Source: Biomaibacter acetigenes (GTDB lineage Bacteria > Bacillota > Thermosediminibacteria > Thermosediminibacterales > Tepidanaerobacteraceae). From it: DNA of 64,000 bases. The stretch is from the NCBI RefSeq assembly GCF_003691585.1, contig NZ_CP033169.1, forward strand, positions 248,001 to 312,000, read 5' to 3'. Positions 1-18,285 of the stretch are shown one piece after another. The translations under genes were made by a program, and so were the position numbers. The notes under the pieces are model-generated. The model did no database searches, had not been told where the DNA came from, and saw only the letters and a list, made by a program, of their open reading frames with translations. Positions within the stretch are counted from its first letter, which is position 1; every line of letters begins with the position of its first letter.

Positions 1-1148
1 ATCATGACGGAAGCAAAAATTTTGTCCTGCAGCACACCGTATTTCACAAATGCGTTTAAATTGGGCCAATGAGCTTCGTATGCTTCTCGCCTTTTTTGAA
101 ACATGTCATTTAGGGCAATTGTTACTTCTTGAGAAAGGCATTCATAAATCAATTCGCACATATCATCGTTTTGTTTATCTTCTCTTATTGTTGAACGAGA
201 AACGACAAGCGGCAAATAGTCACATTCAATAATACCGCTTTGAAGATTTACAAATTTGGGTATTATTTCGCGGATATTATCGCCGACGTAGACCCCTCTG
301 TTGTAAACCTTGATTTTTCCATCGATCTCTTCAGTTCCGTTTTTTGTATCCCTGAAGAACAGGATGCCCCTTACGCCAATGTCTATGATTTCAAACTGAA
401 TCCAAAACAATGGGTCGCATACATCGTCGAAAAACTCCCTGTAAAACGTATTCATATCAGTTGGATTGATGGATTCTTTAGGCTGTCTCCATAATGGATA
501 AGGATTGTTGACTAATACATGGTCGTAACCGGGTGCTTCAAAATATATAGCTGTCTTTGAAAAAATAAAGTATTTCTTTATACTTTCATATATGAGGTCA
601 GGCTTTTTTAAATAAAGATTGTTTTCGTCCAGATAAAGAATGACATCCGTGCCAACTTCGGTCCTGTCGCAGTCGCACATGCTGAAGGACATGTCTGACA
701 TGCAATTCCATCGGACTGCGGTTGAATTTTTCTTGTAAGATTTAGTTTCAATCGCCACATGATCTGACAGCATAAAAGCGGAATAAAAACCCACTCCAAA
801 ATGGCCGATGATTGTATCTTTACCAGCCTGGTTGTGTTGATTAATAAACTCCGTTGCACCTGAAAAGGCAATTTGATTTATATATTTATCGACTTCTTCT
901 ATGTCCATGCCGATGCCGTTATCACTTATGATAAGCTTCTTTGATTCGGGTTCCAACCTTACAAGGACTTTTCCCTCCGCCCAAGCTATACTCTCATCCG
1001 TATTTCTTAATTGTGTAAGCTTTTCGATGGCGTCTAAAGCATTTGAAATGAGTTCTCTGAAGACAATATCCTGTTTTGTGTATAACCACTGTTTCAGTAT
1101 GGTAAAAATGTTTTTGCTTTCAATTGACAAAACCCCATTCCGATTCAT
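1..1148 (-). CDS. htpG: Molecular chaperone HtpG (Hsp90), N-terminal 382 residues, cut by the window edge
   Basis: The frame is open from an ATG at 1148 to the window edge. It begins MNRNGVLSIESKNIF, and the N-terminal GHKL ATPase fold is plain: the E/N helix (FRELISNALDAIEKL), the nucleotide-binding DNGIGM motif near residue 78, and the lid motif GHFGVGFYSAF near residue 115. The middle domain follows, with the Hsp90 pattern LPLVVSRSTIREDKQN close to the edge. Family members are about 620 residues, so roughly 240 C-terminal residues lie outside. The product should be a cytosolic ATP-dependent dimeric chaperone. It is transcribed away from the catabolic region and seems unrelated to it. A weak GGAAGTGAT ribosome site precedes the start. 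Confidence 0.9.
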   Translation of the reverse strand, partial: MNRNGVLSIESKNIFTILKQWLYTKQDIVFRELISNALDAIEKLTQLRNTDESIAWAEGKVLVRLEPESKKLIISDNGIGMDIEEVDKYINQIAFSGATEFINQHNQAGKDTIIGHFGVGFYSAFMLSDHVAIETKSYKKNSTAVRWNCMSDMSFSMCDCDRTEVGTDVILYLDENNLYLKKPDLIYESIKKYFIFSKTAIYFEAPGYDHVLVNNPYPLWRQPKESINPTDMNTFYREFFDDVCDPLFWIQFEIIDIGVRGILFFRDTKNGTEEIDGKIKVYNRGVYVGDNIREIIPKFVNLQSGIIECDYLPLVVSRSTIREDKQNDDMCELIYECLSQEVTIALNDMFQKRREAYEAHWPNLNAFVKYGVLQDKIFASVM

Positions 1149-1188
1149 AAACAATATCACTTCCTTATTTTTATCGTCTTATATGTCT

Positions 1189-1342: not shown

Positions 1343-2236
1343 ATGATGTCAAAAAAAAGAGAGACAAATACAAGCTTTGTAAAATGGCCGACTTTTGAAG
1401 AAATCAAGGAGATGTTCAAAGAACATTTTATTATGGACAGACGTGAGGACGGTGTTGTCACTGTCCGCATGCACACTAAAGGCGGCCCGGTAATCTGGTC
1501 AATGGAACTTCACGATGCGATCGGAAAAATGTGGAGAATGCTCGGAACAGATCGCGATACAGAGATGATCATTTTCACTGGCACAGGCAATTTATGGGTC
1601 ACTGACTTCGAGGCCGCAAGCTGGGCTGCAGAAGGTGATAATCCGGCTGAAACAAGATACAACCACATGTTTGTGGACGGACGCCGCATGATTATCGCCA
1701 TGATTCAGGACGTTGAAGTGCCGACACTTGGCGTGCTCAGCGGTTCCGGCGGTCATACTGAACTGGCGCTCATGTGTGATCTGGCAATTGCAGCCGACGA
1801 TATTACCGTACTTGACCCGCACATGCTGCCGGGAACCAACAATGTGCCCGGTGATGGAATACACAGTTGTTTCATGGAACTTATGCCGCCAAGATTTGCA
1901 GTATGGTACCTTTTGACCGGCGATAAGATGTCAGCTCAAGACCTTCTGAGATTGGGCCTGGTATCTGAAATCGTTCCAAGAGAAAAGCTGATGGATCGTG
2001 CGTATGAAATAGCAGATATGCTGATGGCTCAGAACAGGATTGTGAGAAGGCTGGCAACCCAACTTGTCAGGAGAAACTGGAGAAAGAGAATTGCCGACGA
2101 CCTTGATATGGCATTTGGAACCGAACTGTTCGGAATGTTCTGTTCTGATGAACTGCATTCTGAATTGCTTTCCATGATCGAATATCTGGGTTTGGAAGGA
2201 AAGATCGATCCACCGTTAAAAGGCAAGATACGATAG
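1343..2236 (+). CDS. Crotonase-superfamily hydrolase resembling 6-oxocamphor hydrolase (retro-Claisen beta-diketone hydrolase)
   Basis: This 297-residue protein has a crotonase core: the oxyanion-hole region around residues 75-95 and the GSGGHTELALMCDLAIAAD block at 134-152. Unlike ordinary enoyl-CoA hydratases, it keeps the pattern I recall for 6-oxocamphor hydrolase. His44 (MHTKGG), His138, His160 (DPHMLPG), Asp171 (VPGDGIH) and Glu261 line up with that enzyme's His45, His122, His145, Asp154 and Glu244. That enzyme hydrolyses a C-C bond in cyclic 1,3-diketones without CoA. I infer a similar ring-opening or beta-diketone hydrolase here; enoyl-CoA hydratase is the conservative alternative. 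ATG codons at 1343 and 1346 both follow a GGAGG site at 1333. A strong hairpin after the stop separates it from buk. Confidence 0.75.
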   Translation: MMSKKRETNTSFVKWPTFEEIKEMFKEHFIMDRREDGVVTVRMHTKGGPVIWSMELHDAIGKMWRMLGTDRDTEMIIFTGTGNLWVTDFEAASWAAEGDNPAETRYNHMFVDGRRMIIAMIQDVEVPTLGVLSGSGGHTELALMCDLAIAADDITVLDPHMLPGTNNVPGDGIHSCFMELMPPRFAVWYLLTGDKMSAQDLLRLGLVSEIVPREKLMDRAYEIADMLMAQNRIVRRLATQLVRRNWRKRIADDLDMAFGTELFGMFCSDELHSELLSMIEYLGLEGKIDPPLKGKIR

Positions 2237-2284: not shown

Positions 2285-2303
2285 CAGAAGAGAGGTGCTG
2301 GCA

Positions 2304-3437
2304 TTGAAGAAGATTTTTGCCATTAATTGCGGATCTACTTCTACCAAAGTGGCATATTTTGAAGATGACAAGATGATCAGCAAAGTATCCCTGGATGTTA
2401 CTGCAGAGCAATTGAGAAAAATGCCCAAAGTTCTTGATCAAAAGGAATATCGGACGAATCAGGTCAAGGAATTTTTGAAGGAGAACAAACTTGATCCGGC
2501 TCAGTTTGACATTATAGTCTGCCGGGCAGGAACTATTCCACACGTTCCATATGATGGAGCATACGAGGTCAATGATTTGATGATAGCCACCGTTACTTAT
2601 GCGCCAGAAGCTCAGCATGCTTCTACCCTGTCGTGTTTAATTGGAAAAGAATTGGTGAAGGGATTGGATATCCCGGTCATAATTTATGATCCAACGTGTG
2701 TTGATTCGGCTGATGAAATTGCTAAAATTACTGGAATTCCCGAAATAATTAATATGCCTCTTGCACATTTGTTGAACACTAAAGCAGCAGGTACTGAATA
2801 TGCGAAATCTATTGGCAAGGATTATAAGGATTTGAACCTTATTATAGTTCAGCTTGGAGGAGGAATTACTTTAGGTTTTCACGACCATGGCCGCATATCC
2901 GATTGGGTATATGATGATGAAGGGCCGATGTCGCCTCAAAGAGCAGGTGCGATTCCCACAAGGTATATGGCTAATTTCTGTTATGATTGGTTTAAAAGCG
3001 GGAAAACTTTGCAGGAATTAAGGATGTACCTGTGCGGGCAATCCGGTCTGGTTGCGTATTTTGGAACGCAGGATGTCCGAGAAGTAGAAAAAATGATCAA
3101 TCAAGGCAACAAGAAAGCCGAATTGATTTTGAAGGCAATGGCCTATGGAGTTGCCAAAAGTATTGGGCAGCTTTCCGTAGTCAGGGGTGGAAAAGTGGAT
3201 CAAATAATCCTCACCGGAGGGATGGCATACAGCGAAAGGATCACCAACTGGATTAAGGAGAAGGTTTCTTTCATTGCTCCCGTTACCATAATTCCAGGCG
3301 AACGGGAGATGGAGGCCCTGGCAGCCGGAGCCCTTCGAGTCTTGAATAAAGAAGAAGAAATTCACCCTTACAACGTCTATCCCAAAGGTTATAGCTCGAT
3401 AGAGGAAATTATAAACAATCCGAATTATCTTGCCTGA
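2304..3437 (+). CDS. buk: Butyrate kinase (acetokinase/ASKHA family)
   Basis: Butyryl phosphate + ADP gives butyrate + ATP, the energy-conserving last step of butyrate formation; branched-chain acyl phosphates are possible substrates. The ASKHA fold is visible: the phosphate-1 motif INCGSTSTKVAYF at the N-terminus, the VQLGGGITLGFHDHGRISDW block near residue 180, and the adenosine motif ILTGGMAYSERI near residue 300. About 377 residues is normal for Buk. I prefer the TTG at 2304 (KKIFAINCGST), 8-9 bases after GAGAGG; the GTG at 2295 overlaps the ribosome site. It is followed after 43 bases by the beta-keto acid cleavage enzyme and then ptb, so Buk and Ptb are split by an inserted gene. Confidence 0.95.
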   Translation: MKKIFAINCGSTSTKVAYFEDDKMISKVSLDVTAEQLRKMPKVLDQKEYRTNQVKEFLKENKLDPAQFDIIVCRAGTIPHVPYDGAYEVNDLMIATVTYAPEAQHASTLSCLIGKELVKGLDIPVIIYDPTCVDSADEIAKITGIPEIINMPLAHLLNTKAAGTEYAKSIGKDYKDLNLIIVQLGGGITLGFHDHGRISDWVYDDEGPMSPQRAGAIPTRYMANFCYDWFKSGKTLQELRMYLCGQSGLVAYFGTQDVREVEKMINQGNKKAELILKAMAYGVAKSIGQLSVVRGGKVDQIILTGGMAYSERITNWIKEKVSFIAPVTIIPGEREMEALAAGALRVLNKEEEIHPYNVYPKGYSSIEEIINNPNYLA

Positions 3438-3480: not shown

Positions 3481-4314
3481 ATGGCACTGGATAATAAAGT
3501 AATCATAACTTGCGCCTTAACAGGCGCCGTAACGCCAAAAGAACTAAATCCATCAATCCCGCTCACACCCGAAGAGATTGCAGAGGATGCCTATAAATGC
3601 TGGAAAGCCGGCGCGGCAGTTGTCCATTTGCATATGAGGGATGACAAAGGACTTGGCACCATGGACAAGGAAAAATTTAAAAAAACGATTGACCTGATTA
3701 AGCAGAGGACCGACTGCAACGTGGTTATCAACTGCACTACATCAGGCGACAACAGGGCTACCTACGAAGAGCGCATGGCACATCTCTCTTATGTGAAACC
3801 CGAAATGGCATCTTTTGATGCGGGTTCATTCAACTGGATGCCTTTGGGCATATTTGAAAATTCGCCGCAGTTTCTGGAGCAGCTTGGTTTGAAGATGAAA
3901 GAGCTGGGCGTGAAGCCTGAGCTGGAAATCTTTGATTCTGGATTTATGAATATCGTAAGTTATTATGTAAATAAGGGAGTGCTTGTGCCGCCGTGCCATT
4001 ATCAATTTGTTCTCGGCGTGCTCGGAGGAATGGAAGCCACGGTAAAAAACCTTTTATTCCTTCATGAAATGCTGCCCGAAGGCTCAACATGGTCTGCGTT
4101 CGGGGTGGGCAGGCAGCATTTGCCGATTATGTATGCAACGCTGGCTTTAGGCGGCCACATAAGAGTGGGGCTTGAAGATAATGTTTACTACAGCAAAGGA
4201 AAACTTGCTACAAATGTGATGCTGGTGGAAAGAGCAGTAAGGGTTGTTCGGGAATTCGGGAAAGAGCCTGCAACGTCAGATGAAGCAAGAGAAATACTCG
4301 GCATAAAGAAATAG
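3481..4314 (+). CDS. Beta-keto acid cleavage enzyme (BKACE family, Kce-like)
   Basis: This is a 277-residue TIM-barrel protein of the BKACE (former DUF849) family. Members use zinc to condense a beta-keto acid with acetyl-CoA and split it into acetoacetate and a new acyl-CoA. The zinc-binding HLHMRD motif (His near residues 45 and 47) and the C-terminal GLEDN glutamate are present. The best-known member, Kce, acts in lysine fermentation, but no other lysine-fermentation gene is here; another characterised type, triacetate acetoacetate-lyase, acts in phloroglucinol degradation. The substrate is therefore open. I chose the ATG at 3481 (MALDNKVIITCALTGA) behind GGGGAG; an upstream in-frame start at 3451 lacks a ribosome site. 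It is co-directional with buk and ptb. Confidence 0.92.
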   Translation: MALDNKVIITCALTGAVTPKELNPSIPLTPEEIAEDAYKCWKAGAAVVHLHMRDDKGLGTMDKEKFKKTIDLIKQRTDCNVVINCTTSGDNRATYEERMAHLSYVKPEMASFDAGSFNWMPLGIFENSPQFLEQLGLKMKELGVKPELEIFDSGFMNIVSYYVNKGVLVPPCHYQFVLGVLGGMEATVKNLLFLHEMLPEGSTWSAFGVGRQHLPIMYATLALGGHIRVGLEDNVYYSKGKLATNVMLVERAVRVVREFGKEPATSDEAREILGIKK

Positions 4315-4326
4315 CGGGTGATGAGA

Positions 4327-5229
4327 ATGTATAAGGATTTTGAGTCATTAATCAAAGCGCGTCTTGACCGCAATGCATCTTTAAAAAGGGCTGTCGTTGC
4401 TGGCGCAAATGACGAACATGCGGTGGAAGCAGTTTTTTTGGCTCAGGAAAAAGGTCTGGTCATTCCCGTTCTTGTCGGAGATAAAAAAGAAGTCAAAGAT
4501 ATAATTCAAAAAATGAATTATCTGGACAGAACTTATGAAATTATTCACTGCGAAGCAGATGATAATCCTTCAGAAATAGCTGTAAAGCTGATTCACGAAG
4601 GTAAAGGCGATTTTATTATAAAAGGCAAAATTGAAACCAGGAATTTGCTTAAACCAGTGTTAAACAAGGAAACCGGTTTAAACAGGAAAGGATTCATCAC
4701 GCATTTCGGCCTGATGCAGCTTAAAGGATATCATAAGCTTTTGGCTATTAGTGATTGTGCCATCATTCCATATCCAACCCTGGAAGAAAAGAAAAAAATC
4801 GTGAAAGCAGGCATGGAAGCTTTAAGAAAATTGGGATATGAAAAACCTGTCGTTGGAATACTATGTGCCGTAGAAACGGTTAGCGAAAAAATGCCCGAAA
4901 CTCTCGACGCGCAAAAACTGCAGCAAATGGCAATGGATGGCGAATTCGGGAATGGAGTCGTGATAGGGCCTATTTCGTTTGATCTTGCCACAAGAAAAGA
5001 ATCTGCGATTATTAAAGGATACGACTCTCCTTATGCAGGCGATGTAGATATGCTGGTGGTACCTCAAATGGTTACGGGGAATGTCATGAGTAAAATATGG
5101 AATGCAGACCCGGAAAACATCATGGCCGGCTGCCTGATTGGCGCCGATGTACCAATCGTATTGACTTCCAGAAGCGCCAGCATGAATGAAAAACTTTATT
5201 CAATATTGCTATGCAATATGCTAAGTTAG
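4327..5229 (+). CDS. ptb: Phosphate butyryltransferase (phosphotransbutyrylase)
   Basis: It converts butyryl-CoA and phosphate to butyryl phosphate, supplying Buk two genes upstream. About 300 residues with the PTA_PTB fold: the N-terminal VVAGANDEHAVEAV segment, the central GKIETRNLLKPVLNKETGL block, and a C-terminal region containing VPQMVTGNVMSKIW and PIVLTSRSAS. The start is uncertain among GTG 4318, ATG 4321 and ATG 4327; the last gives about seven bases from GGGTG. The upstream gene stops at 4314, so the two are translationally close. Its stop overlaps the stop of the convergent lysR gene by three bases, and there is no room for a separate terminator. Confidence 0.94.
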   Translation: MYKDFESLIKARLDRNASLKRAVVAGANDEHAVEAVFLAQEKGLVIPVLVGDKKEVKDIIQKMNYLDRTYEIIHCEADDNPSEIAVKLIHEGKGDFIIKGKIETRNLLKPVLNKETGLNRKGFITHFGLMQLKGYHKLLAISDCAIIPYPTLEEKKKIVKAGMEALRKLGYEKPVVGILCAVETVSEKMPETLDAQKLQQMAMDGEFGNGVVIGPISFDLATRKESAIIKGYDSPYAGDVDMLVVPQMVTGNVMSKIWNADPENIMAGCLIGADVPIVLTSRSASMNEKLYSILLCNMLS

Positions 5230-6152
5230 CCTTTTTGAAATATCAGTTCCCCTAAGATTTTTTTTTGTAAAAGGTTCTTAACGATATCGACAAAGCTGTT
5301 GACAAGTTCGGAAGAGTTGGCTTTTTTATAGAGCATGATAATTGTACTTTTAGCTGAAAAATCATCAAGAGTAATATATGAGATATTCTGGTCGCTGGTC
5401 TTGGCTTTTGTCAGAGATGCCGGGACAATGCTGTAACCTAACCCCAGAGAAACGTCAAAAACAGCGGATTCCGTTGTGTTGACATAGGTTGTGTTGATCT
5501 GCCTTATTCCGGCATAGCTTTGAAGTTTATGAATGAACAGTTTCATAAAAGGCGGCTCTATATATGACGGCAGAATAAGGGGCAGTGAATTGACAATATC
5601 AGCAATTGACTCTTTTGAAGGATTCTTAAAGAGCTTTGACGGTACGATTAAGGAGAAATCGTCTGTTCCGACGGGAATACTTTCAAGTTCTTCATAGCCC
5701 GGAAAGGCAAAATCATAAGTAAATCCGACATTGTAAATGCCGTAAAGGATTGCGGACGGAATTTCGTTGAATTCATACGATTCGACAATAAGCTTTATTG
5801 AAGGGTACTTTTGTCGGATTAATAACAATGCAACGGATAGCATATAACACAATTTGCCGGGCGAAGTTATTTTGAGCACTCCGGCGCTGCCTTTGCCTGC
5901 TAGCTGTACATTTTTGGTTACAATTTCCAGATGCCGGATTAGCATGTCGCATTCCCCGTATAAAGCTTCGCCGGCTTCAGTCAGATCAACCTTTTTGTTG
6001 TTCCGCTCAAAAAGCTTAACGCCGAGTTCAGTTTCCAGAGCTATAATATTGCGGCTTAATGTCGACTGGCTGACAAAAAAGTACTTTGAAGCTTTGGTTA
6101 TGTTCCTGTACTTTGCAATGTATTGAAAATATCGCAATGTTTCGAGGTTCAT
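5226..6152 (-). CDS. LysR-family transcriptional regulator
   Basis: This is a 308-residue LTTR. The N-terminal winged helix-turn-helix is clear (NLETLRYFQYIAKYRNITKA, then SQSTLSRNIIALETELG), followed by the linker helix and a periplasmic-binding-like effector domain. The minus-strand ATG at 6152 is preferred over 6161 because GAAAGGA lies eight bases before it. It is divergent from the thiolase operon, with a 151-base gap holding a T-N11-A type dyad at 6229-6254, and its 3' end overlaps the end of ptb. The position between the two catabolic blocks suggests that it controls one or both in response to a pathway intermediate. The effector is unknown. Confidence 0.93.
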   Translation of the reverse strand: MNLETLRYFQYIAKYRNITKASKYFFVSQSTLSRNIIALETELGVKLFERNNKKVDLTEAGEALYGECDMLIRHLEIVTKNVQLAGKGSAGVLKITSPGKLCYMLSVALLLIRQKYPSIKLIVESYEFNEIPSAILYGIYNVGFTYDFAFPGYEELESIPVGTDDFSLIVPSKLFKNPSKESIADIVNSLPLILPSYIEPPFMKLFIHKLQSYAGIRQINTTYVNTTESAVFDVSLGLGYSIVPASLTKAKTSDQNISYITLDDFSAKSTIIMLYKKANSSELVNSFVDIVKNLLQKKILGELIFQKG

Positions 6153-6228
6153 AAAAAGCATCCTTTCAACAAGTGTTTTATGCTTCTTTTAGGATAATTT
6201 TATCACAAAGAAAACAGAAATCAATTAT

Positions 6229-6303: not shown

Positions 6304-7458
6304 ATGGACAAATGCGTAATTGTGGCGTACGGCCGCTCGGCCATAGCAAAAGCCGTCCGCGGAACATTAGCCGCGGCAAACCCTGTGGATTTTGGAGCAG
6401 AGGTACTGAAAGGTGTTGTTGAAAGGGTTCCTGAATTGGATTTGAGAGAAATTGACGATGTTATTGTGGGTTGCGCGATCCCCGAAGGGAAAATGGGATT
6501 GAACCCGGCTAGAAATATAGTAATAAGGGCAGGATTCCCGGTTGAAGTTCCCGCACAGACCATTAACCGCTTTTGCGCGTCTGGTCTGCAATCGGTGGCA
6601 ATAGGCGCTTCCATGATAATGAGCGGCTTGCATGAAGTTGTAATTGCCGGGGGGGTGGAATCAATGTCCTGCCCGGTGCTTTCGGAAAGCCCGGAATATC
6701 TAAATAAATGGCTTCTTGAAAATACAGATATCTACATGCCCATGGGAATTACAGGAGAAAATGTGGCTGCAAAATACGGCATCAGCAGAGAGCGCATGGA
6801 ACAGATGTCTGTTGAAAGCCATGCAAAAGCTGCAGCAGCCGTGGAAAACGGCCTGTTTGATGATGAAATCATACCTGTGACAGGCTACGATAAAGAAGGC
6901 AATCCGGTTGTATTCAAACGCGATGAATGTTACAGGAAAGGAACAAATATGGAAGTGCTGGCCACTCTGAAGCCTTCTTTCAAAGAAGACGGCTTGCTGA
7001 CCGCTGCTACGTCTTCTCAAAGAAGTGACGGTGCTGCCTTTGTTGTGCTGATGTCTGAAAGAAAGGCAAAAGAACTTGGTATAAAACCGATTGCAACCTT
7101 TGTATCCTTTGCAGTGGAGGGTTTGGACCCTGCTTACATGGGATTGGGGCCGATCTATGCCGTGAGGGAAGTTTTGCACAAAACAGGCCTTAAAATTGAT
7201 GACATGGATGTGATTGAATTAAATGAAGCCTTTGCTTCACAGGCGATAGTTACGATTGATGAACTTAAAATGGACAAGAAAAAAGTTAACCCTCGGGGCG
7301 GCGCATTGGCTCTGGGCCACCCGCTGGGGGCAACCGGCGCGATATTGCTTTGCAAGGCCATGAACTATTTGAAAGATACAGGTGGCAAGTATGGCCTTAT
7401 AACTATGTGCGTTGGAGGCGGCATGGGAGCTGCCTGCATAATAGAAATGGCAAAGTGA
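6304..7458 (+). CDS. Acyl-CoA thiolase, FadA-like
   Basis: This 384-residue thiolase carries the nucleophilic cysteine in INRFCASGLQS (near residue 89), the GGALALGHPLGATGA His motif near residue 337, and the C-terminal acid/base cysteine in MCVGGGMGAA. The NRFC(A/S)SGLQ form is typical of FadA-type 3-ketoacyl-CoA thiolases, whereas the second thiolase at 16413 has the NMVCGSGMKA form of acetoacetyl-CoA thiolases. The two likely act on different chain lengths. AAAAGGAG precedes the ATG. It opens a co-directional run of seven genes that ends at 14336. Confidence 0.94.
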   Translation: MDKCVIVAYGRSAIAKAVRGTLAAANPVDFGAEVLKGVVERVPELDLREIDDVIVGCAIPEGKMGLNPARNIVIRAGFPVEVPAQTINRFCASGLQSVAIGASMIMSGLHEVVIAGGVESMSCPVLSESPEYLNKWLLENTDIYMPMGITGENVAAKYGISRERMEQMSVESHAKAAAAVENGLFDDEIIPVTGYDKEGNPVVFKRDECYRKGTNMEVLATLKPSFKEDGLLTAATSSQRSDGAAFVVLMSERKAKELGIKPIATFVSFAVEGLDPAYMGLGPIYAVREVLHKTGLKIDDMDVIELNEAFASQAIVTIDELKMDKKKVNPRGGALALGHPLGATGAILLCKAMNYLKDTGGKYGLITMCVGGGMGAACIIEMAK

Positions 7459-7475
7459 AACAGGGGGAAAAAATC

Positions 7476-8702
7476 TTGAATTTTGAAGAGAAAAGATGGA
7501 GGTATATGGCAGGAGCGATGCTGCTTGCCTTATGCTCCGGGATTGGATATGCGTGGAGCGTTTTTCAAAAGCCGCTGATGGAAAACTTGGGATGTGATTT
7601 AAAGTCCATCTCTCTAACTTTTACAATTCAAATATTAATATCAACAATTGCACCGGTATTTCTTGGAAGATTTCAAAATGTTATTGGGGTTGCAAACTAT
7701 TTGCGAATAGGCATTGCGGTTTATGTGCTTGGGCTTTTTGCGACAATGTTTGCAGGTTCTATCGTCTATTTGTATATTGTGTATGGCGTTGTAGTGGGTA
7801 TAGGTATCGCCATGCTGTATCCCAGCCTGATGGCTTACAGTACGAGTTTATTCCCTGATAAGACAGGGCTGGCTTCAGGCATATTGGCATGTTCTTATGG
7901 CAGTGGCGCAATTTTTTGGGCGCCAATTGCAACGTTTTTCATGCAGCGTTATGGTGTATTATCGGTATTTGGATTATTTGCAGCTATCTTTTCCGTTGCA
8001 ATGATTCCCGCATCATTTCTTATAAAAAAAGTACCTGATGACTTTATTGCAAAAATGGGTAAAGCCGGAAAGATAAATACTGATAATGCATTTGTAACGG
8101 ATTATACGTGGAGGGAAATGTTAAAGACATCCACATATTATTTGCTGGTTATGGCACTTACATTAGGAACTGCAGCGGGTTTGATGATTATGGGCCATGC
8201 TTCTACAATTTTGCAGGAGGTGTTGAATTTTCCGGCGTCAAAAGCAGCTCTTTTGGTTGGCCTATTTTCCATATTCAATTCACTTGGCCGCCTTATTTTC
8301 GGGTTTGTATCAGATCGTTTTGGGAGATATAATACAATGATGTTCTTGTTTGCCGTAATTGGAGGAGCGATGTTGCTTCTAACAAAAACAAGCGGCATTA
8401 TATTTGTTGTTGCGCTGCTCGTAATCAGCTCATGCTATGGTGGCTTTACTTCAATGTTTTCACCGGTATGCGCAGAAAACTTTGGCTTGAAAAATCTTGC
8501 TGTCAACTATCCGTTTCTTTATGTTGCTTACGGACTGGCAGGGACAATCGGGCCACAACTTGCAGCCAGAATAAAAACTGCAAGCGGTGGATATGACCTG
8601 GCGTTTTTTACTGTAGCAGTTATGAGCGCGGTAGGCTTTATTGTGGTATTGTTTTTAAAGGCTAAAAAAAATGCAACTAAAATAAAGCCGATTCAATGTT
8701 AA
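7476..8702 (+). CDS. MFS transporter, oxalate/formate antiporter (OFA) type
   Basis: This is a 12-helix major facilitator of about 408 residues. The opening RYMAGAMLLALCSGIGYAWS, then the N-half helices with the VVGIGIAMLYPSLMAYST segment and the SLGRLIFGFVSDRFGR loop between halves, fit the OFA subfamily, which moves small carboxylates. I place the start at TTG 7476, 8-9 bases after AGGGGGA; the frame is open further upstream but only through the end of the thiolase gene. The gap to the thiolase stop is 17 bases. It probably imports the carboxylate substrate of this region or exports an acid product. Confidence 0.88.
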   Translation: MNFEEKRWRYMAGAMLLALCSGIGYAWSVFQKPLMENLGCDLKSISLTFTIQILISTIAPVFLGRFQNVIGVANYLRIGIAVYVLGLFATMFAGSIVYLYIVYGVVVGIGIAMLYPSLMAYSTSLFPDKTGLASGILACSYGSGAIFWAPIATFFMQRYGVLSVFGLFAAIFSVAMIPASFLIKKVPDDFIAKMGKAGKINTDNAFVTDYTWREMLKTSTYYLLVMALTLGTAAGLMIMGHASTILQEVLNFPASKAALLVGLFSIFNSLGRLIFGFVSDRFGRYNTMMFLFAVIGGAMLLLTKTSGIIFVVALLVISSCYGGFTSMFSPVCAENFGLKNLAVNYPFLYVAYGLAGTIGPQLAARIKTASGGYDLAFFTVAVMSAVGFIVVLFLKAKKNATKIKPIQC

Positions 8703-8714
8703 GAGGGGTGAATT

Positions 8715-9737
8715 ATGAAAAGCATTACTTTAAAAATCGATGGATACGTAATTGAAGCAAAAGAAGGGCAGAACTTGTTACAGGCTGCATTGGACGCGGG
8801 CATATACATTCCGCACCTTTGTTATCATCCGGATTTGACGCCGGCCGGCAATTGCAAGTTGTGTGCTGTAGAAATTGAAGGCCATGATGGCATTGTTCAG
8901 GCATGCGAAACCGTTGTCGAAGACGGCATGGTAGTAAATACAAAGACAGAAGCGGTAAAGAAACTTCGCAACATGGCGTTGGAACTGCTGCTGGCAAGTC
9001 ATCCCAAAGATTGTACATCTTGCAACAAGTATCTTAATTGCGAATTGCAGGCCTTAATGCAATATATGGGCGTTGCCCATTCCAGGCTTCGCGAAATTCA
9101 AAAGGAAAATACAGGTATTGCCAAATCAGATAATTTGATAAAGCGCGAGATGCAGCGCTGCATCCAGTGCGGGCGTTGTGTCCGTGCTTGTGAGGAACTT
9201 CGCGGCGTTGGAGTCCTAACTTTCAATAAGAAAAATGGAGAAACTTATATTTATACAAAAGATGATAAACCATTGAAAGAGACGGATTGCAGGTTCTGCG
9301 GAGCATGCGTGGAGGTATGCCCTACGGGAGCCATCCAGGATGTGGAGGGTGTTTTTTCTAAAAATGTTCCAAGAAATATGGCGTTGGTGCCGTGCAAGAA
9401 TAATTGTCCCGCGCATACAGATATACCTATGTATATCAGGCTTGTGTCGCAGGGTAGATACAGCGATGCGGTTTCGGTCATAAGGGAAAAATTGACATTC
9501 CCTCATTCTCTGGGATACATCTGCACGCATGCTTGTGAATCGGGTTGCAAGAGAATGCATCTGAATGAACCTATAGCAATAAGAGAAATAAAGCGTTTTG
9601 CTGTGGAAAATGACGAGGCTCAGGCATGGAGAAAAAAGGTTGTCAAAAATAAACCTAACGGGAAAAAAAGTGGCTATTATTGGAGGCGGCCCCGCAGGAA
9701 TGACAGCAGCATACTATTTGGCAAAAAAGGGTTATGA
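8715..9737 (+). CDS. NuoG-like iron-sulfur/flavoprotein, N-terminal part; gene split by a frameshift
   Basis: The N-terminus is a [2Fe-2S] ferredoxin domain (HLCYHPDLTPAGNCKLCAVE) with a NuoG-type cysteine cluster (KDCTSCNKYLNCELQ). Two [4Fe-4S] ferredoxin motifs follow (CIQCGRCVRACEE and CRFCGACVEVCPTGAI), then the Fer4_20 cysteine domain that precedes GltD-like FAD domains (CKNNCPAHTDI, CTHACESGCKR). True homology ends near 9668. After the A7 run at 9663-9669 the frame turns into nonsense (SGYYWRRPRR), while the FAD domain starts at once in the +1 frame. One base fewer would join this to the next entry as a single protein of about 695 residues. GAGGGGTG precedes the ATG. Confidence 0.85.
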   Translation: MKSITLKIDGYVIEAKEGQNLLQAALDAGIYIPHLCYHPDLTPAGNCKLCAVEIEGHDGIVQACETVVEDGMVVNTKTEAVKKLRNMALELLLASHPKDCTSCNKYLNCELQALMQYMGVAHSRLREIQKENTGIAKSDNLIKREMQRCIQCGRCVRACEELRGVGVLTFNKKNGETYIYTKDDKPLKETDCRFCGACVEVCPTGAIQDVEGVFSKNVPRNMALVPCKNNCPAHTDIPMYIRLVSQGRYSDAVSVIREKLTFPHSLGYICTHACESGCKRMHLNEPIAIREIKRFAVENDEAQAWRKKVVKNKPNGKKSGYYWRRPRRNDSSILFGKKGL

Positions 9738-10803
9738 AACTGAAGTATATGAGCGGCGCGCCCGTGCCGGAGGCATGCTTTCTTATGGTATTCCGAAATA
9801 CAGATTGCCTCAATATATTGTTGACAATGAAATAGAAATCTTGAAGGAAATAGGCGGAATAAAAGTCTACACTAATTCCAATATAAAATCTGTTGATGAC
9901 CTAAAGGGAAAAAATTATGATGCCATACTGATAGCTATCGGCGCAACGAGAGGCAAAAGACCTCCGGCATACAACAAGCAATGGAAAAACGCTCTGGATG
10001 CGGTGGATTTTTGTAAAATGGCGTGTGAAGGTTTGACTCCGAAATTGGGAGACACTGTAACGGTTTACGGAGGCGGGAATGTTGGATTCGACTGCGCAAG
10101 GACAGCAAAAAAAATGGGCGTTGGCACAGTCCGAATCGTGTGCATGGAAGCTCGCGATAAAATGCTGGCAGATCCTGAAGAAATTAATAGTGCTTTGGAA
10201 GAGAACATTGAGATACTCACCAGCAGAGTCATTACAAATATTGAGGAGTCGGGAGATGCTGTCAAATCGCTGTCTCTTTCAAGTATAAAGAGTTTTAAAT
10301 TCACTGAAAACGGACTGGAGCTCGATATGGAAGAAAATTCAGCAATGACGCTGACCACGGATACACTGATATTCGCAACCGGCCAGCAGCCGGAACTGGA
10401 TGATTCATTTGGAATTGAGCTGGTGAAAAGCAGTTTTGCAAAAGTCGACGGCATGATGAAAACAAACAGGGAAGGGGTCTTTGCTGCCGGCGATGTAATC
10501 TACGGGACCAAATCTGTTGTGGACGCCATAGCATCCGGGAGACAGGCCGCAATTAACATAGACAAATATCTCGGCGGCGATGGGAACATTGAAGAAACGC
10601 TTTTTGAAAGGGAAAAATTAAACCCGCGCATAGGCACGATTGATGGCTTTTCGAAGCTTGCAAGAATTGATCATTTTAAAAATGCATGCGATGCAAATGC
10701 AGAATCTATTCGTTGCCTTCAATGCGATCTGAGGCTGGATATTCAAAAGGTCAAATATTGGGTAGATGCACACTTTAAGTCGGTAAAGGGGGTGATAAAA
10801 TGA
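9664..10803 (+). CDS. GltD-like NAD(P)/FAD oxidoreductase, C-terminal part of the frameshifted gene
   Basis: The homologous part starts at the A7 run with KKVAIIGGGPAGMTAAYYLA (FAD GxGxxG), has a second Rossmann motif VTVYGGGNVGFDCARTAKK near 10070, and ends with FAAGDVIYGTKSVVDAIASG and a CLQCDL remnant motif. It resembles the small subunit of glutamate synthase and similar flavoproteins that shuttle electrons between NAD(P)H and iron-sulfur partners. The open frame reaches back to a TTG at 9598, but that start has no ribosome site and the first residues (LWKMTRLRHGEKR) look out of frame. I therefore treat it as the second half of the gene at 8715, not as an independent gene. The stop overlaps the next gene's ATG. 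Confidence 0.82.
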   Translation, partial: KKVAIIGGGPAGMTAAYYLAKKGYETEVYERRARAGGMLSYGIPKYRLPQYIVDNEIEILKEIGGIKVYTNSNIKSVDDLKGKNYDAILIAIGATRGKRPPAYNKQWKNALDAVDFCKMACEGLTPKLGDTVTVYGGGNVGFDCARTAKKMGVGTVRIVCMEARDKMLADPEEINSALEENIEILTSRVITNIEESGDAVKSLSLSSIKSFKFTENGLELDMEENSAMTLTTDTLIFATGQQPELDDSFGIELVKSSFAKVDGMMKTNREGVFAAGDVIYGTKSVVDAIASGRQAAINIDKYLGGDGNIEETLFEREKLNPRIGTIDGFSKLARIDHFKNACDANAESIRCLQCDLRLDIQKVKYWVDAHFKSVKGVIK

Positions 10804-11450
10804 CCTGTAAGGCAAACAGTGCAGTTTTGCCAAAATGGCAGGAGTCAGATGCCAATGCCTGTGTAGTAGATTATTGCAAGAATCTTATGGATACCGCAAG
10901 GAAAGAGTCATGCGGGAAATGCGTTCTCTGCAGGGAAGGCACGTGGCAGGTTTATGAGATAATTAAAGACATAACGGAAGGCAACGGTCAAAGCGAAGAC
11001 TTTGAATTATTGCTTGAAATCCTCGAACAAATGGACAAAAATGCAAAATGTGAAATGTCAAGGACGGCAGCTTCCATTTGCATTGATTTGATGAAAGCAC
11101 ATGAAGAAGAGTGGGATAAGCATATCCGCCGAAAAAGATGTTCAAACCTTGTATGTAAAGGCACTTATACCGTTTATGTGGATCCACAGTTGTGCGATGG
11201 ATGTGGAAAATGCCTGGAGAGCTGTCCACATGGGGCGATTGCCGGCAAAGCAGGCATGATTCATGTTATTAATCCCAATATGTGCAGCAAGTCGATGATT
11301 TGCATGTCTGTTTGCCCCAAAGGTGCGATAAAGAAGGCCGGCGCAGTTAAACCAAAACTTCCGAGTGAACCCGTACCGGTAGGCAGTTTCGATCAGCCGT
11401 CCGCAGGCCAGGAAGGTGAAACAATGATGCGGCGGCGCAGAAGGCGATAG
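10800..11450 (+). CDS. NuoF C-terminal-like plus 2x[4Fe-4S] ferredoxin protein
   Basis: Residues about 25-105 match only the C-terminal iron-sulfur domain of NuoF/HydB (ESCGKCVLCREGTWQVYEII); the FMN/NADH-binding and SLBB parts are missing. A bacterial-type ferredoxin domain follows (CDGCGKCLESCPHGAI, then CSKSMICMSVCPKGAI). Next to the NuoG/GltD-like protein it completes a reduced electron-transfer module in which NAD(P)H-binding FAD, iron-sulfur chain and ferredoxin domains lie on separate genes. I infer that it feeds the flavoenzyme at 11503 or the one at 14451. The C-terminus is odd: MMRRRRRR. It starts ATGA, overlapping the previous stop by four bases. Confidence 0.85.
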   Translation: MTCKANSAVLPKWQESDANACVVDYCKNLMDTARKESCGKCVLCREGTWQVYEIIKDITEGNGQSEDFELLLEILEQMDKNAKCEMSRTAASICIDLMKAHEEEWDKHIRRKRCSNLVCKGTYTVYVDPQLCDGCGKCLESCPHGAIAGKAGMIHVINPNMCSKSMICMSVCPKGAIKKAGAVKPKLPSEPVPVGSFDQPSAGQEGETMMRRRRRR

Positions 11451-11502: not shown

Positions 11503-13020
11503 ATGAGTATAAAGTTGGAAGCCGATGTCATCGTAATAGGCGGTGGGGCATCGGGCATCACAGCAGCGGTGGCGGCGGCTGAAAAGGGTGTTGGAGTCAT
11601 TGTATTGGAAAAAGGAAGCACCACCGGCGGAGCAGCCAATATGGGGATGGGCCTTTTTGCCGTAGAATCAAAATACCAAAAAGCACAGTTGATCGATTTT
11701 ACAAAGGAAGATGCGTTCAACCTCTTGATGAATTATACCCATTGGAGGGTTGACGCCCGCCTGGTAAGAAGATATATCGAACAATCCAGCAATACCATTG
11801 AATGGCTGGAATCCATAGGTGTCGAATTTCTGGGCGCATACAAATACTTTGAAAAGTCAACCCAGACATGGCATATCGTGAAAACAAGAGGAAGCAATGC
11901 TCCGGCTGAAAGGGCAGCCTCCAACATGTTCCGGGCTTTAACTGAAAGAGCGGAAGAACTTGGCGTTAAAATTATGTATAACACCAGAGCAACCAAGATT
12001 TTAAAAGAGAACGGTTATGTGACGGGCGTTGAATTAATTACTGCTGACGGCGAAAAGGTTACCGCTGAATGCAATGCCGTTATCGTAGCAACAGGCGGAT
12101 TTGGAGACAACCCGAAGATGCTCAATGAGCTGCTTGGATATGAATGGGGCAAGGATCTCCACTCATTCAGAATACCGGGCGTGCAGGGCGAAGGATTGAA
12201 AATGCTCTGGGAAGCTGGCGCTGCCAGAACACAGCCAACTATGGAATTGACGTACACGACGCCGGGCGTGACCGATATATACAAAACAATAAGCGAGACG
12301 ATGCGTCAACCCAATCTTATGGTGAATCTTGACGGAAAGCGCTTCATAAATGAAGAAATCATGAACAATACGGTTTATACGGGCAACGCAATTTCACTGC
12401 AGCGCGAGAGGATGGCCTTTACCATCATTGACGACAGCATACTGGATACATACAGAAAAAATGGCCTGGATTACGTGACTGTCCATCACAATATTAAAAC
12501 AATAGAAAACTGGGACAAGGAGCTTCATAATTACTTTAGCGGTGAAGGCTCCGACAGTGCCGGCCTTAGCGAACTTCACAGCGAAGCACAAAAAAAGCAG
12601 GTGAATGTTTTTGTTGCGGACACACTGGAAGAATTATGCGAGAAAACAGGGATAAATCTTGAAAATCTCAAGGAAACCATCGATGAGTACAATCGCATGT
12701 GTTCAACTTCAGACGAGATGTTCTTTAAAAAGCACAAATACATGAAGCCTCTGAAAGGCGGGAAATATTATGCTGCAAGACATTTTCCTGCAGGCTACGG
12801 CAGCCTTGGCGGCGTAAAAACTAATGATAAAATGGAGGTCCTTAATACTTCAGGCATAAAAATACCCGGACTGTATGCCTGCGGCATGGATGCATGCAAT
12901 ATCTATGGCGACAGTTACTGCTTCTACATGCCGGGAAATACGATGGGTTTTGCTGTCAACAGCGGAAGAATGGCCGGCTACAATGCGGTAGATTATATAA
13001 ATTCTGAAGAATTTATGTAA
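11503..13020 (+). CDS. FAD-dependent fumarate reductase-like flavoprotein (FRD/KstD superfamily)
   Basis: This 505-residue flavoprotein starts with ADVIVIGGGASGITAAVAAAEKG and EKGSTTGGAANMG (FAD-binding). It has the family ATGGFGDNPKML segment near residue 195 and ends with IPGLYACGMDACNIYGDSYC and PGNTMGFAVNSGRMAGYNA. Relatives include fumarate and urocanate reductases, BaiN-type flavoproteins and ketosteroid dehydrogenases, so it either reduces an activated C=C bond or dehydrogenates a ring ketone. No signal peptide or haem motif is seen, so it should be cytosolic and take electrons from the preceding iron-sulfur genes. A GGAAGGAGAG site precedes the ATG. Confidence 0.9.
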   Translation: MSIKLEADVIVIGGGASGITAAVAAAEKGVGVIVLEKGSTTGGAANMGMGLFAVESKYQKAQLIDFTKEDAFNLLMNYTHWRVDARLVRRYIEQSSNTIEWLESIGVEFLGAYKYFEKSTQTWHIVKTRGSNAPAERAASNMFRALTERAEELGVKIMYNTRATKILKENGYVTGVELITADGEKVTAECNAVIVATGGFGDNPKMLNELLGYEWGKDLHSFRIPGVQGEGLKMLWEAGAARTQPTMELTYTTPGVTDIYKTISETMRQPNLMVNLDGKRFINEEIMNNTVYTGNAISLQRERMAFTIIDDSILDTYRKNGLDYVTVHHNIKTIENWDKELHNYFSGEGSDSAGLSELHSEAQKKQVNVFVADTLEELCEKTGINLENLKETIDEYNRMCSTSDEMFFKKHKYMKPLKGGKYYAARHFPAGYGSLGGVKTNDKMEVLNTSGIKIPGLYACGMDACNIYGDSYCFYMPGNTMGFAVNSGRMAGYNAVDYINSEEFM

Positions 13021-13046
13021 AATAAAAAAACATGAGGAGGGTCATC

Positions 13047-14336
13047 ATGTTTGAAAACAGGAAATTTGCAGGTTACAGCATAGCTTTCATGTTTGTTGGA
13101 CTGCTGTACAACTTCTTTTATTCGGGTCTTCAAAATGACCACCTGAACATCCTGACACCTTTTTTGCAATCAAATTATGGATGGGATGACCTCAAGATTA
13201 CAAATCCGGTGACAGTAGGGGCTTTGGTGACGATTATACTGTACCTGGTCATAGGTTCACTGTTTGTCAAATACGGCGTCAAAAAAATATTATTGCCGAG
13301 CATTGTAGTTATGGCGCTGGGATGTGTAGGAATAGCACTGTCCGCAGGCCAAAATTATTTGCTGTATTCAATAAGCCTTTTTATCGTTCGTGTTCTGGTG
13401 GTGCCGCTACAAATGGGGGGATTCATGCTGGCTGCAAACTGGTACATCAAATACCGCGGCCGAGTTTTGGGGGTAATTACGGCAGGCAGTCCCTTGATGT
13501 CTGTTGTGGGAATACGAATGTTGACATCAATGGTAGCCGGCTATGGCCTGAATGCTTATGTTATTATAGCCGGTGCGCTGGGTGTGCTGGCGGCCCTGAC
13601 TGCATTTGCCATTAAAGATACGCCGGAGGAAGTCGGGCTGTTTCCTGATGGCGCCGACCATGCGCCGCTTTCCGAATCTGAAGATGCCGGCCAGCCTATC
13701 ACATTGAAACAGATTTTGACGGATGCAAGGGCATGGCAGCTTATTATATCATACGGCATTCTTCAATTTGTCATTATGGCAATGATGAGTTATATGGCTG
13801 TAAGATATATAAGTCTGAGCACGCCGCAGGATGTTCCAAACCTTTTTGTGAGCAAAGCAATGTTCTGGCTTTCCATAGGAGCCGCTTCGGGAATTCCGAT
13901 GAGCTATGTTCTGGGCTGGATCGACGATAAACTCGGCTCCATAAAAGCGTCACTGGTTCTAAATATATTGTTCCTGTTTGCCGTTATTCCGCTTGCTATC
14001 ATGCCTGTTGGCGGCAATACCACCCTTATGGCGATATGGGCGTTTGGTGTTGCATGCATGACAGGCGGCCTTCCGACAATGCACCCGTGTGTTACATCGT
14101 ATGTTTATGGACGAAAGAATTATATGGCGGCAAACAGATGGATTATGACCATACAGGCCATTCCGATGGCGTTTGCATTGACATTTATGGGCATATTCAA
14201 TCAAATGGGGAAGCTAACAACGGCTTACTATATACTTCTTGTCATGTTGGCCATTTCTTTTGTAACCATTTTAACCATGTGGAATATTCCCGATGCAAAT
14301 GCTGCTGATAGGGAGTACGGGTTGCAGAGGAATTAA
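13047..14336 (+). CDS. MFS transporter
   Basis: A 12-helix MFS protein of about 429 residues. It has short hydrophobic helices throughout, the KYRGRVLGVITAGSPLMSVVG segment at the end of helix 4/5, and a cytosolic central loop (KDTPEEVGLFPDGADHAPLSESED) of the kind seen in OFA/NNP and anion:cation symporter relatives. The ATG at 13047 follows GAGGAGGG by six bases; an ATG at 13032 is too early for that site. It lies 26 bases after the flavoprotein and ends the second block. Two carriers in one pathway suggest uptake of one acid and export of another. The substrate is not readable from sequence. Confidence 0.88.
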   Translation: MFENRKFAGYSIAFMFVGLLYNFFYSGLQNDHLNILTPFLQSNYGWDDLKITNPVTVGALVTIILYLVIGSLFVKYGVKKILLPSIVVMALGCVGIALSAGQNYLLYSISLFIVRVLVVPLQMGGFMLAANWYIKYRGRVLGVITAGSPLMSVVGIRMLTSMVAGYGLNAYVIIAGALGVLAALTAFAIKDTPEEVGLFPDGADHAPLSESEDAGQPITLKQILTDARAWQLIISYGILQFVIMAMMSYMAVRYISLSTPQDVPNLFVSKAMFWLSIGAASGIPMSYVLGWIDDKLGSIKASLVLNILFLFAVIPLAIMPVGGNTTLMAIWAFGVACMTGGLPTMHPCVTSYVYGRKNYMAANRWIMTIQAIPMAFALTFMGIFNQMGKLTTAYYILLVMLAISFVTILTMWNIPDANAADREYGLQRN

Positions 14337-14399: not shown

Positions 14400-14431
14400 A
14401 AACGAACAAGTATTTCAATACTTGTTCGTTT
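14400..14431. promoter_or_regulatory. Perfect 14-bp inverted repeat upstream of the enoate reductase-like gene
   Basis: Arms 14400-14413 and 14418-14431 are perfect complements around TTCA. There is no T-run after it, so it is a poor rho-independent terminator. It ends 20 bases before the ATG at 14451 and would put a hairpin just upstream of the ribosome site. An operator for a dimeric regulator (TetR-like in style) is the alternative. Confidence 0.5.
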
Positions 14432-14450
14432 GATTCGAAAGAGGGATTAT

Positions 14451-16370
14451 ATGCAGGCGCAATATAAACACGTTATGAGTCCGATTCGAGTTGGCAAGCA
14501 TATGTTGAAGAACCGGATTATCGCGGCTCCGGTTACATTGCATTCAGCTTCAAACGGAGAAAACTACCCTACCGAAGCCGCTATGAACTTTTTTGTCCAG
14601 AGAGCGAAGGCAGGTGCCGGTCTTGTTGTATGTGCAGGTGTAAAGGTGCTGCCTGTGGGGGATGACGGTGAACACGTAAACTGGAACCTTTATAAGCACA
14701 ATGCCATGCACAGACTGGCAGAACTGGCCGAAAGGATTCATTTTTATGGCGCAAAGGCATCCATGGAGTTAATAGGTATTTTTGAAGATGGGTATGTTGC
14801 GTCGGAAGGCGGATTGCTCATGGATGGCGTGACCCCGGGCCGTGAAATTCCCGTCAGCGAAATGATGCGCTATAAAGAAGGATATGCACATTCAGCAGAA
14901 ATGCTGATGAAGTTAGGCTATGATGGAATACTGCTTCATTTTGGCCATGGCATACCAATAGCACAGTTCCTGTCACCTCTGACAAACAAAAGGACCGACC
15001 AGTATGGTGGAAGTTTTGAAAACCGGGTGCGCTATATTATTGAAATTCTCAAAGCGATCCGGGAAAGAGTCGGAGACAATATGATAATTGAGATTCGCAT
15101 GTCTGCTGACGAATTCAAAGAAGGCGGCATTGATATCGCGGAGGGAATAAAAATTGCAGAAGCGCTTCAACAATATGCGGACATCATACAAGCAAGCTGC
15201 GGAATGATAACGCCGGACCTCATGTGCAGAACACATCCGTGCGATTTTCTGCCTCCCAACCCAAATGTATATCTTGCAGAAGCTTTTAAGAAGTCAGGTA
15301 AAATTACATCTTATGTAACAGCAATCGGTGGCATTGGGAGCCTGGCGGATGCCGATGAAATAATAGCCTCAGGCAAGGCCGATTTTGTTGCAATATGCAG
15401 AGCGCTTATTGCTGATCCGGAACTTATTACAAAAAGCATAGCCGGAAAAGAAGATGATGTGGTGCCCTGCATCAAATGCATGAGATGCCATGACAGCACC
15501 GTGTATGGACATTTATTGCAGTGCTCAGTCAATCCGACAATTGGCATAATGCATCATCTGGATTCCATGATCATACCGCCGCAAGAAAAGAAAAAGGTTG
15601 CTGTCATCGGCGGAGGGCCGGCAGGCATGTATGCAGCACTTACTGCCTCAAAGCGCGGGCACCAAGTTACTTTATATGAAAAAACAGGCAGCCTGGGAGG
15701 CACGTTAAAGTTTGCAACCAAAGTTAATTTCAAATATTCCCTTGCAAAATTCAGAGATTACCTGATAAGTCAGGTGGAAAAATCGCCTGTTGAAGTGAAA
15801 CTAAATACGTGTGTTTCACCTGATGAACTTAAAAATCTGGGATATGACGCGGTTATTGTTGCAATTGGAGCAGAACCTTTGGTTCCGCCAATTCCGGGTA
15901 TTGAACATTCTATTTTTGCAACGAACACATACGGCAATGAAGATATCCTTGGCAACAATGTAATAATAATAGGCGGCGGGCAAGTTGGATGCGAGACGGC
16001 ATTGCATTTGGCCAGATTGGGTAAAACAGTCACTATACTCGAAATGCGCGATGAAATGGCCCCGGATGCTTCCAGAACCCATCGGGGAGATTTATTGGCT
16101 GAAATGAACAAAGAAAAGAATTTGATTCAAATTACCTCTGCAAAATGTATTTCCATAAATCCGGATGGCATTGTTTATGAAAAGAACAATGAAAAATTCA
16201 CGTTATCTGCAGACAATGTGATTTTAGCAGCAGGCATGAAGCCGCGAACATCAGAGGCTGATGCATTTGCAGGCATTTCGGATATCTACAGGCTCGCCGG
16301 TGATTGCGTCAGGGCCAGAACTGTTGAAGCGGCTGTGAGAGAAGGTTATTTTGCAGGTATTAATGTGTAA
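14451..16370 (+). CDS. Old-yellow-enzyme/2-enoate reductase-like FMN-[4Fe-4S]-FAD oxidoreductase
   Basis: About 639 residues in the 2,4-dienoyl-CoA reductase layout. Residues 1-345 form the FMN TIM barrel (MSPIRVGKHMLKNRIIAAP; LLHFGHGIPIAQFLSPLTN; KRTDQYGGSFENR). The [4Fe-4S] cysteines follow (CIKCMRCHD, then LLQCSVNP). Then come the FAD motif VAVIGGGPAGMYAAL near residue 383 and the NAD(P) motif VIIIGGGQVGCETAL near 505. Relatives include FldZ-type enoate reductases, BaiCD/BaiH and dienoyl-CoA reductases, all reducing conjugated C=C bonds. The barrel's HFGHG replaces the HxAHGYL common in enoate reductases, so the substrate may differ. It starts the third block with a thiolase and a CoA-transferase. 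The ATG at 14451 follows AAAGAGGG. Confidence 0.92.
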   Translation: MQAQYKHVMSPIRVGKHMLKNRIIAAPVTLHSASNGENYPTEAAMNFFVQRAKAGAGLVVCAGVKVLPVGDDGEHVNWNLYKHNAMHRLAELAERIHFYGAKASMELIGIFEDGYVASEGGLLMDGVTPGREIPVSEMMRYKEGYAHSAEMLMKLGYDGILLHFGHGIPIAQFLSPLTNKRTDQYGGSFENRVRYIIEILKAIRERVGDNMIIEIRMSADEFKEGGIDIAEGIKIAEALQQYADIIQASCGMITPDLMCRTHPCDFLPPNPNVYLAEAFKKSGKITSYVTAIGGIGSLADADEIIASGKADFVAICRALIADPELITKSIAGKEDDVVPCIKCMRCHDSTVYGHLLQCSVNPTIGIMHHLDSMIIPPQEKKKVAVIGGGPAGMYAALTASKRGHQVTLYEKTGSLGGTLKFATKVNFKYSLAKFRDYLISQVEKSPVEVKLNTCVSPDELKNLGYDAVIVAIGAEPLVPPIPGIEHSIFATNTYGNEDILGNNVIIIGGGQVGCETALHLARLGKTVTILEMRDEMAPDASRTHRGDLLAEMNKEKNLIQITSAKCISINPDGIVYEKNNEKFTLSADNVILAAGMKPRTSEADAFAGISDIYRLAGDCVRARTVEAAVREGYFAGINV

Positions 16371-17627: not shown

Positions 17628-18284
17628 ATGAAAAACAAGATAATAGATAAAGAAACATTCAGATCACTATTGAAAGATGATATGACTATCATGTTCGGCG
17701 GATTTATGACTGTAGGAACATCTGACGTATTGATTGAGGAAATATTGAAAAGCGGTATAAAGGGCATTACTGCCATCTGCAACGATGCAGGCTTTGAGGA
17801 CAGGGGCCTTGGCAAGCTTGTAAAAAACGGTCAGGTAAAAAAGCTATATGCTTCACACATAGGCTTAAATCCCCTGGTAGGGAAAATGATGTCGGATGGA
17901 ACACTGGAAGTTGAACTCAGTCCGCAGGGAACGCTGGTGGAGAGAATAAGATCAGGCGGTGCCGGCCTTGGAGGAGTCTTAACGCCGACTGGAATTGGGA
18001 CGGATGTGGAAAAGGGGAAACAGATTATAGAAGTTCAAGGCAAAAAATATATTTTAGAAGAGCCTCTAAGAGCTGACATGGCAATAATCAGAGGAAGAGC
18101 CGTGGATAGACTGGGCAATGTAGTCTATGCACGAACGGCCAGAAATTTCAATCCTGTAATGGCAACGGCAGCAGATATTGTTGTTGTTGGAGCTGATCAG
18201 ATTGTGGAAGTGGGCTCGCTGGATCCTGAAGAAATTATTACACCTCATATATTTGTTGATTACATTGTAAAGGAGGACATATAA
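17628..18284 (+). CDS. CoA-transferase alpha subunit (AtoD/CtfA-like)
   Basis: A 218-residue family I CoA-transferase subunit A with the [19 protein letters not shown] glycine motif and the conserved [22 protein letters not shown] segment. With the next gene it forms the heteromeric enzyme that moves CoA between short acyl-CoAs and acetoacetate or similar 3-oxoacids. Start and spacing (six bases after the thiolase stop, one base before the beta subunit) indicate tight coupling. The exact acyl pair (acetate, butyrate or a pathway acid) cannot be told. Confidence 0.94.
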
Positions 18285-18285
18285 G

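Follow-up and report, generated by a model that had tools for sequence, protein, structure and literature searches.

The window, i.e., the whole stretch of 64,000 nucleotides analysed from the genome of Biomaibacter acetigenes, carries near its left end a gene cluster built around a crotonase-family ORF of 297 amino acids, with an SD-like GGAGG 5' of its ATG (Table 1). The coordinates given for this ORF in the earlier note were reproduced, and the butyrate genes that it mentioned nearby are indeed present as buk and ptb.

Table 1. Features of the hydrolase cluster in their order along the window
Feature	Position	Strand	Basis or remark
HtpG/Hsp90, divergent sequence, divergently transcribed; N-terminal 386 aa in window	3..1160	-	full gene 617 aa, L029:11307-13160 (-)
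OCH/ABDH-type crotonase, putative CoA-independent β-diketone hydrolase	1343..2236	+	sequence, profile, tree, fold
Butyrate kinase (buk)	2295..3437	+	TIGR02707 above cut-off
β-keto acid cleavage enzyme (BKACE)	3481..4314	+	PF05853, 349.6 bits
Phosphate butyryltransferase-like (ptb)	4318..5229	+	best NCBIfam matches below cut-off
LysR-type regulator (lysR), opposite strand within cluster	5226..6161	-	
Thiolase 1 (thl1)	6304..7458	+	conserved next to hydrolase across clusters of Clostridia and in several of actinomycetes
OFA-type MFS transporter	7350..8702	+	
Soluble electron-transfer module: NuoG-N/Fer4, NAD(P)H-flavin (NfnB/GltD-like), NuoF-C/ferredoxin	8715..11450	+	
FAD_binding_2 reductase, fumarate/urocanate/vinylphenol reductase-like	11503..13020	+	
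Second MFS transporter	13032..14336	+	
OYE-type enone reductase, 2,4-dienoyl-CoA reductase/BaiCD-like	14430..16370	+	best PDB match NCR, 6qkg
Thiolase 2 (thl2), acetyl-CoA C-acetyltransferase type	16413..17621	+	
CoA transferase subunits A and B (ctfAB)	17628..18930	+	
S-layer-homology protein inside cluster	18951..21584		
SDR alcohol dehydrogenase	21669..22454	+	61-79% identical homologues in 9 loci

NCR, the best PDB match of the OYE-type reductase, is known as a cyclohexenone reductase, which speaks for the reading preferred below. In the electron-transfer module, the NuoG-N and NfnB-like parts (window 8715-10803) are encoded by a pair of ORFs that overlap in different frames, while in most relatives they form one ORF (about 694 aa in L004, L006 and L025). 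Since the tail of the first ORF resembles the second ORF read out of frame and the relatives are fused, a frameshift or sequence error near window 9600-9740 is likely. Upstream of the Hsp90 gene are found a second OYE-type reductase (L029:7617-9518), a short ORF that by eye is iron-containing alcohol dehydrogenase-like (L029:9522-10202) and, just upstream, pieces of an S-layer-homology protein similar to that of the cluster (L029:10302-11310).

The earlier note had proposed that the ORF contains the five catalytic residues of 6-oxocamphor hydrolase (OCH), at His44, His138, His160, Asp171 and Glu261. In a MAFFT alignment, OCH H45, H122, H145, D154 and E244 correspond to H57, H138, H160, D171 and E261, respectively. 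Four of the five assignments are thus retained, while His44 is ruled out as a catalytic residue: its column is that of OCH H32, and the residue meant is present 13 residues further on, as His57. With this replacement the residues superpose on those of OCH and of the Anabaena β-diketone hydrolase (ABDH), whose named catalytic residues D153, H144, E243 and H43 (PMC3584854) fall on D171, H160, E261 and H57. The five residues, as well as H44, are invariant in the 26 clade members aligned. The columns of H138 and H160 are occupied by Gly and Glu in the enoyl-CoA hydratases of the same genome and in Crt of C. acetobutylicum. The catalytic Glu of the QPE motif (E144 of rat enoyl-CoA hydratase) is absent from the hydrolase, where its column holds H160, and the full five-residue set is missing from all the hydratases compared. 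The hydrolase gene occurs as tandem or nearby pairs in L008, L009 and L010; in L008 and L010 both copies have Gln for the motif His174 (VPGDGIQ).

The hydrolase belongs to PF00378, and none of its best 25 NCBIfam models, all of crotonase type, reaches its cut-off. Searched with phmmer against all PDB sequences, it matches ABDH (4.6e-30) and OCH (8e-30) at levels far beyond chance and better than the best enoyl-CoA hydratase (1.9e-14); a profile of 22 sequences finds OCH at 2.1e-36, while the best hydratase reaches 5.9e-21. The overall identity with OCH and ABDH is about 25-29%. In the maximum likelihood tree all OCH-like sequences are split from the four enoyl-CoA hydratases at 100/100. The window clade stands as a separate group (96/93) next to the OCH, ABDH and plasmid-borne sequences; the OCH/ABDH sequences are themselves held together weakly (66/74).

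The AlphaFold model of the hydrolase has a pLDDT of 74.7 and a pTM of 0.78, with the lowest confidence in the C-terminal part that carries E261 (pLDDT < 50 at 259-261). With this model, ranks 1 to 12 of Foldseek are all OCH or ABDH, and VIA-align gives Z values of 29.0 and 28.8 for OCH and 27.6 for ABDH, the next family scoring 24.7. Sequence, tree and fold therefore agree in supporting a crotonase of the rare OCH type, as proposed in the earlier note, and neither of the two outcomes named there as refuting it (residues that do not superpose, closer grouping with enoyl-CoA hydratases) was observed: the closest solved relatives of the hydrolase are OCH and ABDH, and an identity as enoyl-CoA hydratase is ruled out by the residues, the tree and the fold. 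PDB 3q1t from M. avium, which ranks high among the structures matched by the model, was reported as an enoyl-CoA hydratase but has been argued to be a β-diketone hydrolase (PMC3584854).

The scan of GTDB genomes gave 23 hydrolase loci with 59-90% identity, distributed among (i) Sedimentibacter, Anoxynatronum, Sinanaerobacter, Lachnospiraceae and other Bacillota; (ii) Actinomycetota, i.e., Cellulomonas, Propionibacteriaceae and others including a Thermoleophilia bacterium; (iii) Spirochaetales (Spirochaetota), with in addition one partial match in Deltaproteobacteria. A clostridial member beside butyrate genes, which the earlier note considered new, is thus real but is not an isolated oddity, as close relatives are also present in Actinomycetota, Spirochaetota and several families of Clostridia. 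The cluster is rare: sampling of 398 genomes of the phylum found it in 1, and it is absent from 60 relatives, the sole genome of the same genus included. In Anoxynatronum, Sedimentibacter and Sinanaerobacter, the identity of the hydrolase is 87-90%, whereas that of RpoB over its long segment is about 71-76%; this closer resemblance of the cluster between families indicates that it has been transferred laterally.

The shared members of the clusters are the BKACE, thiolase, CoA transferase, Ptb/Buk, enone and FAD reductases and transporters, with Hsp90 in many of them. Clostridia share the gene order of the core, whereas in Actinomycetota and Spirochaetales it is rearranged. Of 18 long loci, 15 include a BKACE gene and a 16th (L008) has one farther down its contig; none was found within the locus sequence examined for L010 and L020. 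None of the plasmid-borne relatives (27-33% identity) stands beside a BKACE gene in the six regions examined. The cluster of the hydrolase is catabolic and conserved among distant anaerobic bacteria. Two loci have additional genes: L009 contains an HpaB-family protein and a 3-hydroxybutyryl-CoA dehydrogenase (3HCDH), and the actinomycete locus L015 has a phosphotriesterase-family (lactonase-like) gene between BKACE and ptb (L015:14089-15081), hinting at a lactone intermediate.

The BKACE of the window is the only one of the genome. The position of Glu14 of Kce, which touches the 5-amino group and is Trp16 in TAL, the phloroglucinol enzyme of C. scatologenes (PMC10470551), is Val in the window BKACE and Val, Met or Ile in all 17 cluster BKACEs aligned, none of which has the TAL-type Trp. 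The acyl part of the β-keto acid used is therefore probably uncharged. The window BKACE misses the NCBIfam cut-off for the Kce of lysine fermentation and scores 224 bits with the 3,5-dioxohexanoate model NF053538, for a cut-off of 430. To judge from these residues and scores, neither lysine fermentation nor a strict TAL is indicated.

The Hsp90 of the cluster is the only one of the window genome. It scores 433 bits with NF003555 (HtpG; cut-off 371) and has the ATPase motifs ELISNA-DA, DNGIGM and GHFGVGFY. A separate housekeeping Hsp90, with 26-30% identity to the cluster Hsp90, exists in Anoxynatronum, Sinanaerobacter, Sedimentibacter, L022 and L023. The Hsp90s found beside the hydrolase, in several phyla, make up a single clade (100/99, and 90/93 after addition of an outside relative), the branching of which follows in outline that of the hydrolase. 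Hsp90 is present in 13 of the 18 long loci. Since five actinomycete loci (L014, L016, L017, L020 and L021) show none, a requirement of the pathway for Hsp90 is unsupported. In its strict form, exclusivity of this Hsp90 to the cluster is also ruled out: of 398 genomes, one encodes a relative of it among unrelated genes, although this sequence branches outside the cluster clade (90/93).

The reading preferred here, with a probability of roughly 0.7, is that the protein is a cofactor-free and CoA-independent C-C hydrolase of the OCH/ABDH branch which acts on a cyclic 1,3-diketone supplied by the reductases of the cluster, and the product of which is fermented. By analogy with OCH, the His160-Asp171 pair would activate a water molecule, H57, H138 and E261 would bind both carbonyls, and the enolate remaining after the attack would be protonated, i.e., a retro-Claisen reaction. 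The MFS carriers may import an aromatic or alicyclic compound, which the FAD and OYE-type reductases would turn into the cyclic 1,3-diketone inside the cell. Ring opening by the hydrolase would yield an oxo-carboxylate, convertible by the SDR and the BKACE, with acetyl-CoA, into acetoacetate and an acyl-CoA; the CoA transferase, the thiolases and Ptb/Buk would then lead to acetyl-CoA, butyrate or a similar acid, and ATP. The most likely fate of the hydrolysis product is thus fermentation to acetate and butyrate.

BKACE, SDR, thiolase, CoA transferase and Ptb/Buk suit the further breakdown of an oxo-acid formed by ring opening. The phloroglucinol pathway of C. scatologenes is comparable: there, dihydrophloroglucinol cyclohydrolase (DPGC), a Mn-dependent enzyme of the 'cyclase' family, opens dihydrophloroglucinol to 3-hydroxy-5-oxohexanoate, and a BKACE then acts (PMC10470551). 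On the other hand, a simple cyclic 1,3-diketone would have to gain an extra oxygen function before it could give the β-keto acid that BKACE uses, which counts against the proposed pathway. Candidate substrates are phloroglucinol- or resorcinol-like compounds; the side-chain residue of the BKACE matches neither known enzyme.

It is unlikely that the hydrolase cleaves the ring in an alternative phloroglucinol pathway, where it would replace DPGC, the SDR would replace TfD or PGR, and the BKACE would be a triacetate:acetoacetate lyase (TAL). Dihydrophloroglucinol is a cyclic 1,3-diketone, the window cluster is devoid of a DPGC-type gene, and the chemical logic and the partners (BKACE, thiolase, butyrate kinase, transporter and regulator) are shared with the C. 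scatologenes cluster. However, the cluster BKACEs depart from TAL in residue (Val/Met/Ile vs. Trp16) and in score (224 vs. 430 bits), the window cluster yielded no TfD-like 3HCDH, and PGR does without an FAD/Fe-S electron chain. The 3HCDH of L009, read from an alignment, retains the CoA-binding Lys56 and Asn221 that are missing in TfD, and is thus ruled out as a TfD. The classic cluster (PGR-DPGC-TfD-TAL) is ruled out as well, because there is no DPGC nearby and the BKACE is not TAL-like. The two genes of the DPGC family (PF04199) in the genome lie outside the window cluster (L027, ~1205500; L028, ~3018900). Each of them adjoins a carbamate kinase-like gene, and that of L027 has a W-x-Y spacing in common with the residues reported for DPGC.

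Quite improbable is the opening of 1,3-cyclohexanedione in a reductive resorcinol pathway, where the FAD reductase and the NuoG/NfnB/NuoF-like proteins would be a ferredoxin-linked resorcinol reductase. Such a pathway, with a ferredoxin-dependent reductase and a hydrolytic cleavage, has been described biochemically, as far as a citing paper relates it (Kluge 1990); the literature searched yielded no gene for it, and the FAD_binding_2 reductase of the cluster has its own Fe-S/NAD(P)H electron module. Yet the 5-oxohexanoate formed would not be a β-keto acid; this would leave the conserved BKACE without a direct role, and neither acyl-CoA dehydrogenase nor hydratase was found among the cluster genes. 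Finally, an ordinary CoA-dependent crotonase (enoyl-CoA hydratase or BadI/BamA-like ring hydrolase) with converged residues would fit PF00378 and the CoA enzymes among the neighbours, but is very improbable given the complete set of OCH/ABDH residues, the replacement of the hydratase glutamate, the sub-threshold scores of the best 25 NCBIfam models, and a tree, profile and fold that favour OCH/ABDH, the direct comparison being with enoyl-CoA hydratases.

A broader proposal can be advanced only tentatively, the odds being somewhat against it: the cluster may encode a new anaerobic, O2-independent ring-degradation pathway, based on a cofactor-free hydrolase of crotonase fold and mobile between phyla together with its own Hsp90, which would serve its enzymes. 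No prior description of the cluster was found in the open-access literature searched, a limited library in which OCH is named in a single paper and by which absence is weakly tested. If the preferred reading as a CoA-independent hydrolase is true, the crotonase fold would be an anaerobic and metal-free ring opener, parallel to the Mn enzyme of phloroglucinol degradation. The cluster would then also offer concrete candidate genes for reductive ring-degradation pathways for which none appear in the literature searched, e.g., that of resorcinol. The Hsp90s that many clusters carry belong to one clade, distinct from the housekeeping copies in these genomes; this would be a rare case of an Hsp90 proper to a catabolic pathway, and would make the choice of clients by Hsp90 testable.

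Among known systems, OCH of Rhodococcus (PDB 1o8u, 1szo) shares with the hydrolase the crotonase fold, the His/His/His/Asp/Glu set and the VPGDGxH motif, with 25-26% identity over about 245 residues and a Z of 29. OCH is known from camphor breakdown in an aerobe; in contrast, the window clade has a longer C-terminus, forms its own 96/93 clade and occurs alongside BKACE, reductases and often Hsp90 in clusters of anaerobe type. ABDH (Anabaena alr4455; PDB 2j5g, 2j5s) has the four equivalent residues given above and is the best single-sequence match, but is cyanobacterial and not known from a cluster like that of the window. Kce has PF05853 in common with the window BKACE and differs by its Glu14 and by the missed lysine-fermentation cut-off. 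The best analogue is the phloroglucinol degradation of C. scatologenes. The Mn hydrolase that opens the ring there is unrelated to crotonases, and the specificity residue of its BKACE is different; nevertheless, a CoA-free hydrolytic ring opening is followed in the same manner by a BKACE-family enzyme, a thiolase and a butyrate kinase.
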